The notes under the pieces: generated by a model
What the model was told of the DNA's origin: nothing
What the model saw: only the letters and a program-made list of their open reading frames with translations
Databases searched by the model: none
From: Dentipellis sp. KUC8613
Taxonomy: Eukaryota; Basidiomycota; Agaricomycetes; Russulales; Hericiaceae
NCBI GenBank assembly: GCA_002286715.1
Contig: NSJX01000035.1
Span: 124,001-188,000, forward strand
DNA length: 64,000 bases
Direction: 5' to 3'
Shown: positions 21,516 through 52,611 of the stretch, piece by piece
Layout of the letters: each line of letters starts with the position of its first letter
Position numbering within the stretch: the stretch's first letter is position 1
Translations under genes and position numbers: made by a program

Positions 21516-24500
21516 TCAAGGCAGCACCGGCGCCCCGCCACTCTGCACCTGCGCATCCTCCCCGTCAGGCATGAACATCCACTCATACGGCGCAGTGCTC
21601 ACCGGTGTCATCCCCGGCGCGTCCACGCTGCTCGACGATGACGCCGCGGAAGCCGCAGAGTCAGGAGAGGCCGCCGCAGCCGAAGGGTCAGAAGACGCCG
21701 CGGTAGCTGTAGCCGCGATATGCGGCGCAACGACCTGCACATCGAGCGTGCCCAAGCTCCCGTCATCCGAACTCGTCGTACTAGTTGTACTCTGTGTCTG
21801 CGAGCTCGACGGGAGAGCACTGAACGTGGGGTCGGAGGACGGCGCCGTGGTGGCCGTGGTCGAGTCAGAAGTGGCGGCTGCACCGAACGCGAGAGCAGGC
21901 GTGGAGTCCGTTGAGCTTGAAGCCGTTTCGCTCGACCCTCCCGGTCCGTAGGTGTACGAATAGCTGTAGTCGTAGGTATAAGAATAGGAATCGTAACCGT
22001 TGGCGGAGCCGTATCCCGCGTTGTAGCCATAGGCAGGGCTGTTGGGAGTCGCAGATACGGACGCGCTTGCCGATTCGCTCGATGTTGAGCTCGAAGCGGA
22101 AGAGGAGTACGCGGCATCTGCGAGCTGTGTCGTCGCCGAACCGGATTGAGTGGGATACCCGCTGGTCGTCGTACTCGAGAAGGCCGAGGAATACGCAGCA
22201 TCTGCAAACTGTGACGTCGCGGAAAGGGACTGGCTGGGGAATCCGCTCGTCGTCGTGCTTGAGACGGACGAAGAGAATGCAGCGTCTCCGAACTGCGTCG
22301 TCGCAGAAAGAGTCTGGCTCGGGTACCCGCTCGTAGTCGTGCTGGAGACTGACGAAGGGTACGCTGCGTCCGCAAACTGGGACGTCGAAGAAAGTGACTC
22401 GCTCGGGTACCCGCTTGCCGTGCTTGAGATCGCCGACGAGTATGCAGCATCTGTGAAGGGCGTCGCCGACGTGGAGGTAGTGAGCGAGTATGAGTCCGTC
22501 GCGGAGGAAGTGGGCGTCGGAGTCAAGGTCACAGTTACGCTCTGCGTAGCAGTACTGGTGCTGGTGTACGTGCTAGTGTACGTCACGTCAGTGGTCGTGG
22601 TCGTCGCGTCTGGCATCGCGAACGGAACAACACCCAGCTCTGGCGCAGCGGGAGTAAACACCAGCGAAACATTCTGTGGCGTCGCGTACTTGCTGTTGTC
22701 TTCAGATCCGGAGGGGCTTGAGGGCGCCGCATTGCTTTCCGCAGGTGTAGCGTCAGGCTCGGAATCGGCGCTCCCCACGTCAGTCACGCTCGCCATAACC
22801 GCGCTCTGGGGAGTCGGCGGGTCGACAGCTGCAACGCCTTCGTCGGGTGCCTCACCGCTATCGCCTGTGGAGCCATCCTCGGGCTCGTCGAAGACACTGG
22901 CCGTGCCGCCCTGGCCGCTGCTGCTATCGTCCGTGCCATCGTCCATTCCGTTGAACCACATAGGCCGGACGACTCCCGTCAACTTGTTGTATGCAAAGAG
23001 TTGACTCGTATGCTTCGCTTCTGCAGGCGCAGTCGAGTTAGATACAGAGTCGGTGGAGTTGGCGCCTGCGTCGTAAGTACCCAAGTTGCCGCCGCCATAC
23101 GGGGTTGAGTCGTCGCCCGATGAATTGTCCAGAGAGGTCATGTTGAACCCGGAGGCTCCGGCAGGAGCAGTCGAATTGCCGCCTGACATCCCAGATCCCT
23201 CGCATGCCTGCGCTGTGAGCGGAGCAGGCTTGGGAGGGTTCGGATCGAATGTAGCGCAGAATGGGACGATGGTGGCAGATTCGGCGTCGAAAACAGGCAA
23301 CTGAAGCGTCACCAGCATCTCATCTGGGCTCAGTGGAGAGGACGAGTTGTTCGACGCAGCCAGGAAATCGGGAGCCGAAGACGACTCTGAGGAAGAAGCA
23401 GGAACGAGATAGATCTGGGTCTGGTTGTTCTGCGACGCGTTGAGCACGAACGGCGCTCCATCCGCAGAAGAATTTGAAGACGTAGAGTTGGTCCCGCTCG
23501 CAGTCATGCTAGCAGTATCCGTCGGCGCAAGAACGAGGGATGCGATGCGCTCGCCTTCCGATTTATTGACCACTGGGCTCTGAGAAAAGGTATTGGCATC
23601 AGTTGAAGTACCGAACATTGTGAGAAGAGAAAAACGCACGACGATATCGATGCGCCCAGGCACTCCTTGGCTCTGCATGGACGAATCGCGCTTCCAAAGA
23701 TTTCCACCAACGCGGAATCCCTTCTGCGGCTCACCTCGAGCTCGGCCATGGGCGACAACATAAGCTTGACCCTGCTCGCCGGCGATGAGGATAGAGCGAC
23801 CGACATGGACGTGGTCATCATTGCCGGACACTATGATCTCGCCGTGTCTGTGATAGTCGTGATGATGATGGCGGGGAACGTGTACATGGTCATTGTTTCC
23901 CGATACCACGATCTTGCCGTGGCCGTGATGAGGCTCTGGTGTTCGATGATGCAGGTTGACATCGTCGTGGTCGCCCGAGACGATGACCTTGAGATGATGC
24001 CGTCCGTGCGGCTCCCGAGCATCCACTTCTGCCTCCCTCTTGTCGTCGTGGTGATGATGGTGACGGTGATGGCTATGGGGGTCTCGGGACTCAACGTCCG
24101 CCTCCCGGTCATGGTGGTGGTGGTGACGGTGGTGGTCATGATGGGGCTCCGGAGAACGGCGAACATGAACGTCGTCATGGTCGCCGGTGACGATGATCTT
24201 CGGATGACGGTGGCGAGGCTCACGAGCATCCAACTCCACGTCGCGCGAGTCTGGACGGTGGTGACGACGTCCATGAATCGGCTCCCGCTTCTCCTCTTCC
24301 CGGCGGTAGTGCACATGATCATCGTCGCCTTTGACGATGATCAAAGGATGGTGGCGACGAGGTTCGCGGCGCTCGTTATGAGCTCCGACCTGAACGAGTG
24401 GACGAGAATGCGGGACGTCTCGATTACGGCCAATGCGCAGAAGATCGCGCAAGGGGTCGAAATGGAATCGCGAGTCGTGCTGATGCTGAGGGGCTGAAGG

Positions 24501-27540: not shown

Positions 27541-30224
27541 CAGGCAGAGGTTACAAATCTACAAGCGAGAGACACTATCGTTGCGGATGAGTCGAGGACG
27601 ACGGTAGCAGCAAATACTTCCGAAGGCCCGGCAGTTACCGAAAATTCAACTTCAGCGGCGGGAGAAGCAGACGCGCCGCCGCGCGACCGTGACTGTGGCC
27701 TAACACGCTCACTCTTGAACACCATCGTGATGGTGTCCGACGAGCTCACAACTTGTGTCGGGTCCTCTTCCGAAACCTGGCCACTTGATTCTGTCAAAGA
27801 GAAACTATGCATCGAAGCATGCGGCGCGTTCGTTGGTCCAATGAAAGCCAAGGACTTTCTCGAGGCTTTCGTGCCTCCTCCGCCGGCGATGAAGGACGGA
27901 CGGCAGAGGACAATGCCCAGAGTTTCGTTCGAGAAGATGTCTGAAGCACTGAGTGAATCGTATTTGTATCCAAAATATGTGAGTATCTCGCAATGCTCGT
28001 TTGACTCTCTACTGACGAGTGTGGAATTCTAGATCGAAGTCTGCGAGCAACTCGATGAGGATCATATTATGAGATACCACGACACCCATGCCACACCCGA
28101 CCTACGCGGAACTGCTCCCTGCTCTTCTGCGACGGAGTGTCTGAGTCCGGACGTCATGACATACTGCAGGGATCGGCTTCCCGGCGAAGACAGTTATGCA
28201 ACGGGTTTCTCTATTGCGGAGAGGGCAGACGTGCTCAAATTCAAGCACAATGCGGACCCTTTCGAAGACAATCCAAATGAAAGCAACTATCCATTCGAAG
28301 CATACACGAGATCTGGGAAGGACACTCGGGCCCAGATTACCACACACGCCAAGGCCATGCTCGGGCTCCAGTTCCGCACATTCGTCTTCTCGGTCCTCAT
28401 CACGGGAAGATATGCGCGTCTGATCCGCTGGGATCGGTCTGGAGCCATTGTTACCGAGGCTTTCAACTATCAGGACGACCCGGAGCCACTGGCGCAATTC
28501 CTCTGGCGGTACAACTTTCTGTCGCGCGCACAGCGCGGTTTCGACGAATCGGTCAAGGCAGTCGAGGCTACGGACGACACCCCTGACCTGTCTGAGGCTC
28601 TGGAAGCGCTGAAGGACTACATGCCCCCGAAATCGGATCTGTATCTACTCAGGATGATACCCTTGGGCCTGTCCTCTTCGCCACCGAATCAGCCGGGTTC
28701 GGCACTCTCGACGGCGAATCCAGACAAGCGAGCCTCACCTGGCGACGAACCTGATCTATCTTCCAAGTACTATCATGCGCACAAATCGAACTTGAGCGAT
28801 GGCTGGGATTACTATGTGACCGCGCCGCGCATGACTCGGAGCATGAGCGACCGCAGTCCTTTCGGCCGGATAACCCGCTCGCTCTACGTCTACGATCGGC
28901 TAGCAAAGAGGGTGCGCCATCTGAAGGATACGAATCGGCTCGTCAGTCCCATGCATTCGGTGGAACATGAAATCATCAACGAGCTGGGCGAGAAGAAGGT
29001 TAGGCATATTAGCACGGTGCATGCAGCATGGGACGTGGCGCCTGAGGGCAGATGCTATGACACTGTCACTCCGATGTTCTGCGATGACAAGAGGATCTGT
29101 TCCCGCTTCGCCCCACCTGAAATGGGGTGGTGTCAAGCAGCGCGAGTCTATCGCCCCTATAGACTCATTACGAATGAGCTAGGGACGCCGATATGGATGT
29201 TTGAAAATTGGGAACAGGTGATGCGGGTAATGATTGATATATTCGAAGGTGATTCGGAACATCCCTTATCAGTGTCTACAGAAACTGATTGTATAAACAT
29301 TTTGCAGCACTCGACGATGCTGAGAAGGCCGGGTGGCGGCATCGTGATGTCAGTGCTGGAAATATCATGATCTGCAGTGGTCACGGGCTGCTCATCGACT
29401 GGGACGCCAGCCGGAGGTCCAAGGATATGAACAACCCGAATGAGACGAGAGTCTCAGACCTGACTGGGACATGGCAATTCATGTCACGACGCCGACTCCG
29501 TAATGTTGACGGACGCCATGACGCTGTGGATGACATGGAGTCCGTGTTCTGGGTACTCCTTTGGCTCGCGCTCAATTTCAGCGTCCATTCACTCCATCCT
29601 GACGAACTCGAACATTTATCGTATATGATCTTCGACCAGCGCGCAGTCAGCAAGGGATGCCTTGTTGGTGGGGGTGGAAAGGACGCGCTCTTAACAAAGC
29701 AGCGCCTCAACGGATTCATTTCTGCCACCTTTTCACCAGTCGGCCTACAGAGCACCCTGGAGGCACTGCATAGTGCTTTCCGGGTCCAACCTCCATCTGC
29801 GCCAGAAACCCGTGGTATGAACGAGAAGAGGGTGAAGAGAGCACTGGCTACCTACCAGGAAGACCTAAAAGACTACGAAGAAGATGTAGCCAGACTGGAG
29901 GACTCGAGTTATGTTTGCTCGCTGCTGCAGGCTGATCTCGATGATTTTGATTGGCCACCGTATGGTCCCAAGAAGCACATTATTACCGCCGACCGCAACG
30001 GATCACAAATGACGGCCCACTTGCAGAAGACCCTTTCCGCTGGAGTTCGGCAACAGAGGGTCGCGCAGCGTTCGACGTCGCTTCCACGTGAGCCTACCCC
30101 GCGTAGCGCAGGCAGGGCCAAGATAATGCGGACTGATGACACAGCGGACTCGAGAAAGGTGACTCGCTATGCTCCTTTGGACGAGAGGGACGAGGACAGG
30201 GCCAGGAAAGGGGAAAACGCCTGA
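27541..30224 (+). CDS. FunK1-type fungal protein kinase, copy D (N-terminus unresolved)
   Basis: Exon 1 ends at 27978; exons 2 and 3 are 28033-29248 and 29308-30224, with the same exon-3 length (917 bp) as copy A. The frame is open from 27541 but has no ATG before 27730, giving MVSDELTTCVGSS and a 793-aa product; the MAPKPRKG leader of copy A is absent. Catalytic residues are present: WRHRDVSAGNIMI and LLIDWDASRRS, then TGTWQFMSRRRL. The sequence is mosaic: 27721-28890 is nearly identical to copy C, whereas exon 3 and the C-terminus follow copy A. It probably encodes a kinase, either starting at 27730 or using an upstream exon I could not find. The intron-2 donor GTGATT is weak. Confidence 0.72.
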
Positions 30225-33462: not shown

Positions 33463-36280
33463 GTGGTACTGGTCGACGAGGTCGGTAGCTGCATGCAGCT
33501 ATTTCAAGCACGAGTACTTTGCCCGCGCTTGAGGGGTCGGAAGTTGCCGAGAATTCAACTTCAGCGGCGGGAGAAGCAGACGCGCCGCCGCGCGACCGTG
33601 ACAGTGCAGCCTAACACGCTCACTCTTGAACACCATTACGATTCCTGATAAGGCATCGTCTATTATAGACTCACCTTCAGTGCGAAAAAGTGCGCGCGTC
33701 GTCAGCAATCAGAGCTCCCGGTCGAGTCGATAAGCGTTGGCTTGAGGTATTGTGGGTTCGATCCCCACGGAATGTAGATTTTTACTCATTTTTAATTGAC
33801 CTGAACAAGGTCTTTGAAGGCAGATATTTGTTTGGGCCAAGTTTCTGAGGCTTTCCTAAGATAAGTCGAGAATATTCATAATTTTGTCAAAGCTGTATCT
33901 ACAGGGAAGTGAAATGGGTGCATCGACGGGCCCGCGAGGACCATCGGCCCGGGAGTTTTCCGGTTTGACCGTAGCGACTCCAGGAATCGTCTTGCCGTGC
34001 GACGCATCGGCTACTCCCTCCAAGTCGTGATGGTGTCCGACGAGCTCACAACTTGTGTCGGGTCCTCTTCCGAAACCTGGCCACTTGATTCTGTTAAAGA
34101 GAAACTATGCATCGAAGCATGCGGCGCGTTCGTTGGTCCAATGAAAGCCAAGGACTTTCTCGAGGCTTTCGTGCCTCCTCCCCCGGCGATGAAGGACGGA
34201 CGGCAGAGGACAATGCCCAGAGTTTCGTTCGAGAAGATGTCTGAAGCAACAAGCGAATCGGATCTGTATCCAAAATATGTGAGTATCTCGCAACGCTCGT
34301 TTCACTCTCTACTGACGAATGTGGAATTCCAGATCGAAGTCTGCGAGCAACTCGATGAGAATCATATCATGAGATACTACGACGCCCATGCCACATCCGA
34401 CCTACACGCAATTCCTTTCTGCTCTCCTCCGAGGGTGAGTCTGAATCCGGACGTCATGACATACCGCAGGGATCGGCTTCCCGGCGAGGACAGTTGTGCA
34501 ACGGATTTCTCTATTGCGGAGAGGGCAGACGTGCTCAAATTCAAGCACAATGCGGACCCTTTCGGAGACAACCCCAACGAAAGCAACTATCCATTTGAAG
34601 CATACACGAGATCTGGGAAGGACACTCGGGCCCAGATCACTGCTCACGCCGCGGCCGTGCTCGGGCTCCAGTTCCGCACATTCGTCTTCTCAGTGCTCAT
34701 CACAGGGTGTCTTGCACGTCTGATCCGCTGGGATCGGTCTGGAGCCATTGTTACCGAGGCTTTCAACTATCAGGACGACCCGGAGCCACTGGCGCAATTC
34801 CTCTGGCGGTACAACTTTCTGTCGCGCGCACAGCGCGGTTTCGACGAATCGGTCAAGGCAGTCGAGGCTACGGACGACACCCCTGACCTGTCTGAGGCTC
34901 TGGAAGCGCTGAAGGACTACATGCCCCCGAAATCGGATCTGTATCTACTCAGGATGATACCCTTGGGCCTGTCCTCTTCGCCACCGAATCAGCCGGGTTC
35001 GGCACTCTCGATGGCGAATCCAGACAAGCGAGCCTCACCTGGCGAGGAACCTGATCTATCTTCCAAGTACTATCATGCGCACAAATCGAACTTGAGCGAT
35101 GGCTGGGATTACTATGTGACCGCGCCGCGCATGACTCGGAGCATGAGCGACCGCAGTCCTTTCGGCCGGATAACCCGCTCGCTCTACGTTTACGATCGGG
35201 TTGCAAAGAGGGTGCGTCATCTGAAGGACACGAACCGGATCATTAGCCCCAGGCACACCGTCGAACACGAGATCATCAACGAGCTGGGCGAGAAGAAAGT
35301 CAGGCATATCAGCACGGTGCACGCAGCCTGGGACGTTGCCCCCAAGGGCGAATGCTACGATACTGTCACTCCCACCTTCTGCAACAACAAGTCTATCGAC
35401 CCTCAATTCGCGCCACCCGAGGTGGGGTACTTCAAAGCACAGAGGGTCTATCGGCACTACAGGCTCATAACGAACGAACTGGGGGTGCCGCTGTGGGTAT
35501 TCACAAATTGGAAACAGGTCATCAAAGCGTTGATAGATGCCATGGAAGGTAGATTATCACGTCCTTATGAGAGATCTAGTTGCTGACTTCTCGATGCATT
35601 CTTAGCGCTCGATGATGCCGAGAAAGCGGGATGGCGACACCGCGACGTGAGCGTAGGCAACGTTATGATCCATGGCGATCACGGGCTCCTTATCGATTGG
35701 GACGCCAGCCAGAGGTCCGCCGACATGAATTGCGGAAATCCGGCGAGGGTGCCAGATCTGACTGGCACTTGGCAATTCATGTCGTTACGACGGCTTCAAG
35801 ACTCCAGTGGTCGTCATGATGCTGTAGATGACCGTGAATCCATATTCTGGGTGCTCCTCTAATTACAGTGCTCACACGCTCTCACCGGATGCCCTGAAGA
35901 ACCTTCTTCAATTCATATTCAATGACAGCAGGTTCGAGGGTGGACATTATAAAGGTGGGAATGGGAAGGATCTGCTTTTCAAATCTGGGTTCGATGAGGA
36001 GCTTCCGGTCACATTTTTGCCGAAAGGACTTCATATCATTCTCAAGAACCTCCATCGTGCATTTGGAATCCGGCCCCCGACACCACCTAACATCGAAGGA
36101 TTGCCCAATGACGAGGTGAAGATGGAAATGAAATGCTATGAATTCCTTCTAGCGAGATACCGACGTCAATTTTCATCGTTGAACGATTCCAACTATGTTC
36201 GCTCGCTAATGGTGAAGGCTCTGAATCAATATGAATGGCCCATGCAAGGTCCCGTCGAGCACCCTCTCCCTCCTGACTAA
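33463..36280 (+). pseudogene. FunK1-type kinase, copy C, broken
   Basis: Remains of the N-terminal exon start about 33463 with an in-frame stop, and are cut at 33636/33637 by the 389-bp insertion. Coding sequence resumes at 34026; exon 1 ends 34278, exon 2 is 34333-35548 (1216 bp, as in D), exon 3 starts 35606 with WRHRDVSVGNVMI and LLIDWDASQRS intact. An 11-bp deletion at 35860/35861 (present in B: GGTTGGCCCTC) shifts the frame and produces a stop; the shifted frame continues as LKNLLQFIF...PVEHPLPPD and hits a second stop at 36278. The copy is mosaic: up to about 35190 like D, afterwards like B. Non-functional as a full kinase; an N-lobe fragment could still be expressed. Confidence 0.87.
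33637..34025 (+). mobile_element. 389-bp inserted element, copy 1 (in FunK1 C)
   Basis: Starts TACGATTCCTGATAAGGC and ends CTACTCCCTCCAAGT. Comparison with FunK1 D (AACACCATCGTGATGG) shows it was inserted after ACCAT with no target duplication, or one base T at most. Copy 2 is at 52051-52439 with, as far as I can read, the same sequence and the same length. It has a 10-bp subterminal inverted repeat (ACGATTCCTG at 33638, CAGGAATCGT about 40 bp from the right end) and a perfect tRNA-like T-arm, GTGGGTTCGATCCCCAC, whose GGTTCGATCCC fits a Pol III B box. No protein is encoded. Class unknown. Confidence 0.85.
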
Positions 36281-51051: not shown

Positions 51052-52611
51052 ATGGCACGCCTACTCAACCTTTCCGCCGAGGTCATTCTCATGATCATCG
51101 CGGACTTGGAGCTGGATTGTTCTCGTTACCAGAAATCCTACGCTCACCGCATGTCCTTGGTTTGCAAGCAGTTGAACGCCATTTGTGGGAACCTGCTGTT
51201 TCGCTCGTACCCCCTCGTCCTACGCCGTTACCGCGGCGATTGCTTCATCACTAGAAAACCAACTGAACACTGGGAGGACGACGCTATCCATGCTCGCCTC
51301 GGCCATCTCAGGAGCAAGGCGTCTCTCGTACGCAAACTACGCATCATCGACGACAAAGCGTATCACCCTCGCGAGAACGAACCCACCGATGCCCTGCCTG
51401 CAGAGATAATCCCGGATCTCCTATCCACCCTGAAGCTTCTCCACGGCCTCGTGGCTGTCTCCTTCGAAGGACGCGGCGACCTTGGGCCATCTCCTTTTCC
51501 CGTACCCCTCTGGGACTGGCTCGCCTCTGTCAAGCCGAACGAGCTGGGATTGAAGTTGTCGTTCACTTTCCCGGATAGTCTGAAGCCGATCGACGGAATC
51601 CAGAAGCTGGAAGTCAAGCCGTATAATGAGGCGATGAGCCACATCGTGACGGTTAGTGTTATATGAGTATTTGGTGTAAACAAGCCAGTCCTGACCCGCC
51701 CTCATCACGTAGAAGCAGCGCGCGCCGACTTTGCACCTGCAGTACCCATGGGAGGGAGACCTCTACAAGTTTGAGGCCTATGAAGGCCTCGAAAATGTGC
51801 ACGTCGAGGCCGACATCCTGCGCTCGAACCCCCCTCCAAAGCTGTTCGACTTCAGTTCGGTTCCCCAGGCCAAAGTGTTCGTCAAAATCTCGTTTGATGT
51901 GGAATATAAATTCCATATTCCTGTGAGTTATTCGGCCACCCCAATTCTGCGCTGAACTCGCTAATCGCCAAATGATATGTAGGGCGCGTGGAAGAGCAAT
52001 TCTCGTCGCCTGCCATCGTTGTTTGCCGAAGATCTGGCAGACTGGGACGTTACGATTCCTGATAAGGCATCGTCTATTATAGACTCACCTTCAGTGCGAA
52101 AAAGTGCGCGCGTCGTCAGCAATCAGAGCTCCCGGTCGAGTCGATAAGCGTTGGCTTGAGGTATTGTGGGTTCGATCCCCACGGAATGTAGATTTTTACT
52201 CATTTTTAATTGACCTGAACAAGGTCTTTGAAGGCAGATATTTGTTTGGGCCAAGTTTCTGAGGCTTTCCTAAGATAAGTCGAGAATATTCATAATTTTG
52301 TCAAAGCTGTATCTACAGGGAAGTGAAATGGGTGCATCGACGGGCCCGCGAGGACCATCGGCCCGGGAGTTTTCCGGTTTGACCGTAGCGACTCCAGGAA
52401 TCGTCTTGCCGTGCGACGCATCGGCTACTCCCTCCAAGTTCATCGCAGCGACCAATGCTCTATAACTCTGGAGCGTCTCGAGCCCGGGTTCGAAGGCTTT
52501 AGGCGCCAAGATCACATTCCTAACGAGGAGAAAGAAAGGAAAGAGAGGGATAGGATGAGGGCTCATTATGGGCTCCGGGCGTGGCAGGAAGAAATGCGGC
52601 TGCGAAGGTAA
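51052..52611 (+). pseudogene. F-box protein, family member 3, exon 3 split by the 389-bp element
   Basis: Exons 51052-51651, 51713-51922 and 51983-52611. F-box MARLLNLSAEVILMIIADLE and MSLVCKQLNAICGNLLFR are intact. In exon 3, after the DLADWDV codons, the 389-bp element (52051-52439) intervenes; translation would run into it (TIPDKASSIIDSPSVRKSAR) and stop at 52145-52147. Family sequence resumes at 52440 with RSDQCSITLERLEPGFEGF and ends at 52611; without the element exon 3 would be 240 bp and in frame. The F-box and most of the protein could still be made with an altered C-terminus, so partial function is possible. Confidence 0.87.
52051..52439 (+). mobile_element. 389-bp inserted element, copy 2 (in F-box member 3)
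   Basis: As far as I can compare by eye it is the same sequence, base for base, as 33637-34025, and in the same orientation relative to its host gene. The host reads GACGT before and TCATCGC after; relatives show a continuous DV-x-R codon run, so nothing was lost and at most one T was duplicated. The near-identity of two copies in unrelated genes implies recent movement. Confidence 0.87.

Follow-up and report, generated by a model that had tools for sequence, protein, structure and literature searches.

Twin 389-bp insertions in two genes of Dentipellis sp. KUC8613 are very probably copies of a small non-canonical Helitron

Two copies of the same 389-bp sequence lie within genes of the window, by which we mean the whole 64,000-nucleotide stretch of DNA that was analysed, at positions 33637-34025 and 52051-52439. 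Direct alignment found 389 of 389 positions identical, or 390 bp if a leading T is counted (33636 and 52050 are both T), and the two copies are 18,414 bp apart. Both are oriented as their host genes, on the forward strand, and their flanks differ. With one target T included, the first copy of what we read as a non-autonomous rolling-circle element spans 33636-34025 in the gene FunK1 C, and the second, delimited by alignment and flank joining, spans 52050-52439 in an F-box-like gene; the boundary of copy 1 has two equivalent readings, 33636-34024 before T34025 or 33637-34025 after T33636. The first host matches PF17667 (fungal kinase, FunK1) in Pfam, which supports the name given to it in the initial annotation, whereas the open reading frame of the second host gene matched no Pfam model at E 0.01 and its F-box name still rests on that annotation.

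The empty sites define both insertion points to the base. FunK1 paralog B (27629-27845, forward strand) is 97% identical to the joined flanks of copy 1, has just one T where the two flanks meet, and represents the empty site of that copy. Joining the flanks in the second host gene with one T restores ...LFAEDLADWDVHRSDQCS... and re-establishes the reading frame; elsewhere in the window three stretches align to the restored sequence (46-59% identity), and one of the three contains a stop codon. Because of the empty site in paralog B and the one-T join of the second gene, the net gain per insertion is exactly 389 bp. These comparisons uphold what had been proposed earlier, namely that the boundaries are exact, that nothing is lost and at most one T duplicated, and that both copies share the orientation of their hosts and split a codon between its second and third bases (GT|T in the second host and AT|C in FunK1, the latter as read in the open frame of paralogs A and B). 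FunK1 C also has 2 extra bases relative to paralog B just upstream of the element (window 33600-33636), and its upstream frame is shifted; this gene may have been broken independently of the element insertion.

Other readings of the locus were rejected. A position of copy 1 just upstream of the FunK1 start codon conflicts with paralogs A and B, which are open through the site. As an intron, copy 1 has AT where GT is needed, and copy 2 could form GT with the host G, but excising GTTACG...AAG shifts the frame. With regard to an RNA gene, the sole Rfam match up to E 1 was to a snoRNA (E 0.57) and lies outside the element, five related loci gave weak matches to miRNA, lncRNA and snoRNA models (E 0.035-5), none of them a tRNA, and ARAGORN detected no tRNA anywhere in the window. 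Folding of the entire element is just slightly better than that of its shuffles (z -1.38).

Elements of the family begin with TTACGATTCCTG and end in a subterminal inverted repeat, a hairpin and CTCCC(T/C)CCAAG|T. In the window copies the 10-bp subterminal repeat, identified from sequence and from other copies, consists of ACGATTCCTG at 33638-33647 (52052-52061 in copy 2) and CAGGAATCGT at 33981-33990 (52395-52404), both on the forward strand, and is asymmetric, lying 2 nt from the 5′ end and 35 nt from the 3′ end. The 3′ hairpin, at 33994-34011 (forward strand; 52408-52425 in copy 2), was delimited by folding and by comparison of 27 distinct 3′ ends. It has a 7-bp stem, one bulged T and a 3-nt loop, and stands 13 nt before the last base of ...CAAG, within the range of about 10-20 nt before the 3′ end that is expected of a Helitron hairpin. 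Across the 27 ends, 181 of 189 pair cells are standard and all 7 pairs are kept in 22; covariation was not above that of shuffles in the 18 ends considered.

A DNA search of the host assembly (34.1 Mb, 171 contigs) with the element returned 34 matching stretches, both window copies included. Identity falls to 77% among the full-length ones, and many others span only about positions 1-157 or 346-389 of the element. A pattern of the last 34 bp, allowing up to 3 mismatches, occurred at 34 places in the assembly and a 5′ pattern at 23, with 0 for each reversed control. The exact 11-mer TTACGATTCCT was found at 32 places versus 7 for its control: 10 were new partners of 3′ ends, 15 were already known and 7 remained unpaired. 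One of the unpaired places, at window 21986-21996 (reverse strand), does not continue into the 5′ module. Exact matches to the 3′ pattern numbered 0 in IMG/VR and 0 in GTDB genomes, as expected for a fungal element.

Pairing of both ends on one strand gave 27 elements of 354 bp to 6.7 kb, 25 of them between 354 and 637 bp. Sixteen belong to the 389-bp kind and its subfamilies (354-524 bp), and seven, on contigs C2, C88, C100, C109, C110, C116 and C152, measure 443-627 bp. Larger still are the two C98 elements (637 bp each) and the single elements of C102 (4,633 bp) and C63 (6,698 bp); the C102 and C63 elements, whose sequence was inspected in part, and one on C98 were paired by coordinates. 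Seven 3′ ends (C6, C97, C48, C32, C152:21040, C156 and C85) had no paired 5′ end. Subfamilies of the 389-bp type have their first 157 bp or so and their last 44 bp in common and differ in their interiors, with little common sequence between the two modules; more distant subfamilies have only the outer ends and blocks in common. The 389 bp are a full-length unit rather than the fragment of a larger one that the initial annotation had allowed for. The 6.7-kb element showed no Rep similarity in the 2.2 kb examined, and its contig C63 is absent from the 29 matches of a whole-genome search with Rep protein.

Several copies have unusual structures. The element at C86:250632 keeps its 5′ end, with no 3′ end within 3 kb. 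From C100:315692 on (L026), a 389-type 5′ module is followed about 155 bp on by an apparent decayed second 5′ terminus of another subfamily; multiple 5′ termini form a heading for some FoHelis in the published account, as far as its consulted portion goes (PMC5148889). The interiors of the C100 and C98 elements of 627 and 637 bp apparently contain a further stretch, TGGTGGGTTCAACTCTC, that resembles the A and B boxes in degenerate form and is perhaps an older nested element. Finally, the C128 copy lies within a repeat of its own (C128:1031375-1031985) that has more than 20 other places in the genome. These are matched on both strands, and the host repeat is therefore partly palindromic, another short transposon family.

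We tabulated the junctions of 24 complete copies. All 24 have T at both junctions, and each of the 34 matches to the 3′ pattern ends in T, mismatches allowed. Out of 40 flanking positions only -1 and -2 deviated at an uncorrected p < 0.01, with a purine at -1 in 21 of 24 copies (p = 2.8e-4) and a pyrimidine at -2 in 19 (p = 0.007), which defines the target as YR|T. Flank duplications amount to 4 bp in one copy (C163), 3 bp in another (C116) and at most 2 bp in the other 22, and no direct repeat of at least 9 bp was found within 40 bp of the complete copies. Longer duplications, which the initial annotation had named as an outcome that would overturn it, are therefore not the rule. In this respect the 24 complete copies behave as Helitrons, which make no target duplication; the exception is a 5′-truncated copy (C6:42827-43223, L012) in which the first 12 bp are missing and a perfect direct repeat of 34 bp, TGCCATTGACAC...GAGA, stands on either side. 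This is perhaps the product of faulty insertion or repair, and it counts against an absolute rule.

Alignment of copies with their empty sites gave a clear result in part. For three of six copies the DNA comparison yielded exact one-T empty sites: C101b (one site), C128 (four paralogous sites) and C124 (one site, over 47 bp). The empty site of C10a has C instead of T, and those of C10b and C88 are gapped at the junction; an empty site for C101a is supported by protein comparison. At -3 and -2 the filled C128 site disagrees with each of its four empty sites, and with one of them at -1 as well, which may reflect divergence or a trace of insertion. When the joined flanks of five of the 24 copies were searched against the whole genome, C128 had more than 20 paralogs, C10a two, and C101a, C84 and C45 none; the comparison of the other 19 covered a limited set of DNA stretches.

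No position distinguishes the two window copies, and the next two copies depart from them at 18 and 22 of 390. The observed/expected CpG ratio is 1.22 for the window copy and 1.09 for the window, compared with 0.06 and 0.32 for two other copies and 0.27 for the Rep ORF described below. Since some relatives are depleted in CpG and the window copies are not, the latter look young.

A candidate helper is encoded in the same genome. Twelve places match Helitron_like_N, and an uninterrupted ORF of 2,484 amino acids on contig C85 (L069 2497-9951) has Pfam matches to DUF6570, Helitron_like_N (E 1.8e-30) and PIF1 (E 1.2e-22); no endonuclease was among its Pfam matches up to E 0.1. It contains HLH at residue 825 and YITDYITK at 1019, which we take to be the HUH and two-tyrosine motifs, and at 1572 what is presumably a Walker A motif. 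The stop codon lies 4 bp before a 45-bp 3′ module, CAGGAATCGTACTGCCGTGCGATGCATCGGCCACTCCCCCCAAGT, and 49 bp before its last base. This module is the family 3′ end, and the contig ends exactly at its last base, the 3′ T. The last 44-51 bp of C85 match 20 other 3′ ends at 89-98%, while the sequence upstream of them matches none; with the 3′ end of C63 the match extends over 59 bp at 90%. A Rep fused to a PIF1 helicase is thus found beside the 3′ end of the family, as expected for a Helitron. Fuzzy patterns did not find a 5′ end in C85:1-10842, the Rep homolog on C15 has 91 bp at the end of its ORF without the family 3′ end, and at neither of these two loci was a Rep-bearing element with both family ends observed.

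The nearest homolog of the C85 Rep is on C3 (68% protein identity), followed by Rep fragments on C135 (52-57%) and homologs on C150, C62, C15, C169 and C152 (47-48%), with others lower. In a public protein set, 594 proteins match residues 480-1000, the best 120 of the 594 at 48-55% identity, so this Rep group is common. The C-terminal region (approximately residues 2224-2484) is common to the Reps on C59, C15, C169 and C152 at 28-33% and matches no Pfam model above its cut-off; our guess is that it is possibly a protease-like domain.

The family has common ends and variable interiors, inserts at YR|T without consistent duplication, and has a Rep-helicase ORF adjoining the same 3′ end. We consider it very probable that the 389-bp unit is a full-length, non-autonomous, non-canonical Helitron (Helitron2/proto-Helentron-like and comparable to HINEs), with a Rep/PIF1-helicase of the C85 kind as the most likely agent of its mobilisation in trans; this degree of confidence leaves out the Pol III promoter discussed below. 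The initial annotation had rightly described a mobile element with exact ends, a 10-bp subterminal inverted repeat, no target duplication and a T-arm with a tRNA-like B box, lacking poly-A and TC...CTRR, and had taken it for neither a SINE nor a TIR transposon, all of which agrees with the sequence. Its conclusion that the element fits no known class does not stand, given the agreement with Helitron2/Helentron/HINE features and the Rep-helicase ORF at the same 3′ end. The missing TC...CTRR excludes only canonical Helitron1: with 5′ TTACG, 3′ CAAG and an R|T target instead of 5′ TC, 3′ CTRR and A|T, the termini differ, and membership in that group fails. Asymmetric subterminal inverted repeats such as ACGATTCCTG and CAGGAATCGT are, on the other hand, those of Helitron2/Helentron termini, and strict Helentron membership fails because the Rep-helicase has no endonuclease. 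We therefore propose to call the family a non-canonical (Helitron2/proto-Helentron-like) Helitron with HINE-like derivatives. On this account, the twin insertions are recent copies of a small transposon of Helitron type, which probably needs a larger relative in order to copy itself.

Other origins were weighed against the same observations. A tRNA-derived SINE copied through RNA by a LINE would account for the presence, on the sense strand, of an A-box-like block and a consensus B box, for the short length without ORF, and for the copies on C97 and C6 that have lost the 5′ end as LINE-made copies do. It is nevertheless very unlikely, since the target duplication and retroposition tail of a SINE are missing: there is no consistent duplication and no tail, and LINE-like tails with 5-15 bp duplications were found in none of the 24 complete copies. 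Moreover, both ends are fixed, including a 3′ hairpin end common to the Rep-helicase ORF, the copy at C86:250632 shows the opposite pattern, a retained 5′ end with no 3′ end within 3 kb, and elements reach 6.7 kb. A 10-bp inverted repeat might also suggest a MITE of a cut-and-paste (DDE) transposon, which we judge highly improbable in view of a repeat that is subterminal and asymmetric, a hairpin on the 3′ side only, and again the lack of consistent duplication.

Insertion by a tyrosine recombinase, of the Crypton type or as another circular insertion, likewise leaves no or very short duplications. The targets have only YR|T in common, however, and the 3′ end matches a Rep-helicase element, which makes this origin just as improbable as a MITE. 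The last alternative, duplication of one locus during assembly, was raised in the initial annotation and draws on the 100% identity of two copies that lie 18.4 kb apart. Its probability is close to nil: the differing flanks, each restored by its own join, rule out one locus assembled twice, and there are 32 other 3′ ends.

The 5′ module contains an A-box-like block, GGTCGAGTCGATAAGCG, at 33720-33736 (52134-52150 in copy 2), and a B box, GGTTCGATCCC, at 33755-33765 (52169-52179), both on the forward strand and delimited by subfamily conservation. In ten of ten subfamily consensuses TAAGCGT is invariant, starting at 94-97, and GTTCGA starts at 121-152. The B box is present in 30 of 31 distinct 5′ modules, 24 times exactly and 6 times with decay of the CpG type, and the A block is present in 28; the sole module without a B box is the decayed second terminus inside L026. 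A look for the A box thus found a block that is kept across subfamilies and yet degenerate. Among 115 internal alignment columns the only invariant runs of at least 4 are CGTCAG, TAAGCGT and GTTCGA. The hypergeometric P values, post hoc and for related subfamilies, are 0.007 (11 columns of the B box) and 5e-5 (A block). T-stem pairs number 5 of 5 in the consensus of the window copies' subfamily and 1-4 in the other nine; because the stem is not kept, what is conserved is a DNA motif and not a tRNA fold. A run of T4 or longer follows within 100 nt in seven of the ten consensuses, and three have none in the 200-230 nt examined.

Retention of the A and B boxes in all ten subfamilies, at about 94-160 nt from the 5′ end and without retention of the T-stem, suggests a conserved Pol III (TFIIIC) promoter. 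That the boxes form a putative promoter which the element uses and selection has retained is, judging from sequence conservation, a serious possibility, somewhat short of probable. An even chance goes to an explanation of the 5′ module alone in which the boxes arose by chance or as an inherited by-product, a captured tRNA or SINE piece now unused, with the blocks kept as Rep binding sites. This would fit the equal invariance of CGTCAG, which is no Pol III box, the degenerate A box, the three consensuses without a T4 run, and the lack of any Rfam tRNA or 5S match even at E 1-5. It sits less well with the A block and B box being two of the three invariant runs, and with retention of the B box despite some 30 nt of variation in its distance from the A block.

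The stronger proposal, a rolling-circle lineage in which every element must carry a functional Pol III promoter as its 5′ module, appears rather unlikely. Under it, TFIIIC and Pol III would assemble some 80-160 nt in from the 5′ end, and Pol III, transcribing into the element, would leave negative supercoiling in its wake, at the 5′ nick site, and this could help the subterminal repeat to extrude and Rep to load; Pol III transcription could also hold the locus open against silencing. If true, there would be DNA transposons with a SINE-like head in which Pol III activity is coupled to rolling-circle transposition. Among the literature titles and abstract openings examined, there was no report of Helitrons with Pol III or tRNA-like features, and functional boxes would, to our knowledge, be the first known link between a Pol III promoter and rolling-circle transposition.

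Apart from the promoter, the Helitron reading implies a mechanism in which Rep would nick at the 5′ TT and the helicase would then peel off one strand. The 3′ subterminal repeat and hairpin may signal termination and a further cut behind CAAG, and the resulting single strand, probably as a circle, would be joined to a T in the target. An insertion that seemed to belong to no class can be assigned to the Helitron-type elements, and a fungus that has FunK1 genes gains a compact non-autonomous family with exactly mapped ends and target and a candidate helper, young enough to have left two identical copies 18 kb apart. It is also a warning that fungal "SINEs" without target duplications may be Helitrons.

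In the parts of the published descriptions consulted, several systems invite comparison. Elements of the Helitron2, Helentron and HINE groups carry inverted repeats in a subterminal position, in most cases have a 3′ hairpin, and do not duplicate their target (PMC4067079, PMC5148889). Proto-Helentron-Pi of Phytophthora infestans, of about 14 kb, is described with 5′ TT, 3′ CTAG, an A|T target and no endonuclease (PMC4067079). The present family resembles it in its 5′ TT, a 3′ end (CAAG) similar to CTAG, insertion before T without duplication, and a Rep-helicase lacking an endonuclease, and differs in having subterminal inverted repeats, R|T rather than A|T, CAAG, and the A/B-box module. In mite HINEs the subterminal repeats measure 12-15 bp, the palindrome stands 8-35 bp before the 3′ end, and the target is left unmodified (PMC4067079). 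Like HINE/DINE-1 and Helentrons, our elements are non-autonomous, with repeats 2-4 nt from the 5′ end, a 3′ palindrome 8-35 bp from the end, an unmodified target, and ends common to a Rep-helicase element; unlike the mite HINEs, their repeat is 10 bp rather than 12-15 and lies 35 nt rather than 38-60 from the 3′ end, and unlike HINE/DINE-1 and Helentrons they have a partner without an endonuclease domain and a target that is YR|T, not T-rich (PMC4067079).

Among fungi, Helitron1 and Helitron2 have both been named, including a TET+ Helitron2 in Agaricus bisporus (PMC12730594), and the fungal Helitrons surveyed, again in the portion of the source consulted, mostly group with Helitron2 and have no endonuclease (PMC5148889). 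FoHeli1-5 and FoHeliNA of Fusarium oxysporum are fungal and carry asymmetric inverted repeats, as here; the CTCCTGT end of FoHeli3-5, which have no 3′ hairpin, resembles CTCCCTCCAAGT of the present family, and the interior of FoHeliNA1 is unrelated, much as interiors vary in our family (PMC5148889). Their terminal sequences differ from ours, and the FoHeli sections consulted describe no Pol III-like module (PMC5148889). HELPO1 and HELPO2 of Pleurotus ostreatus, with T[C/G]...CTRR or CTTG termini, are likewise Agaricomycete Helitrons and resemble the present family in an AT target, a subterminal hairpin and the 3′ CTRR or CTTG; they depart from it in that their shortest measures 1.5 kb and the consulted part of their description mentions no subterminal inverted repeat (PMC4289320). 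The present family probably works in the manner of these systems.
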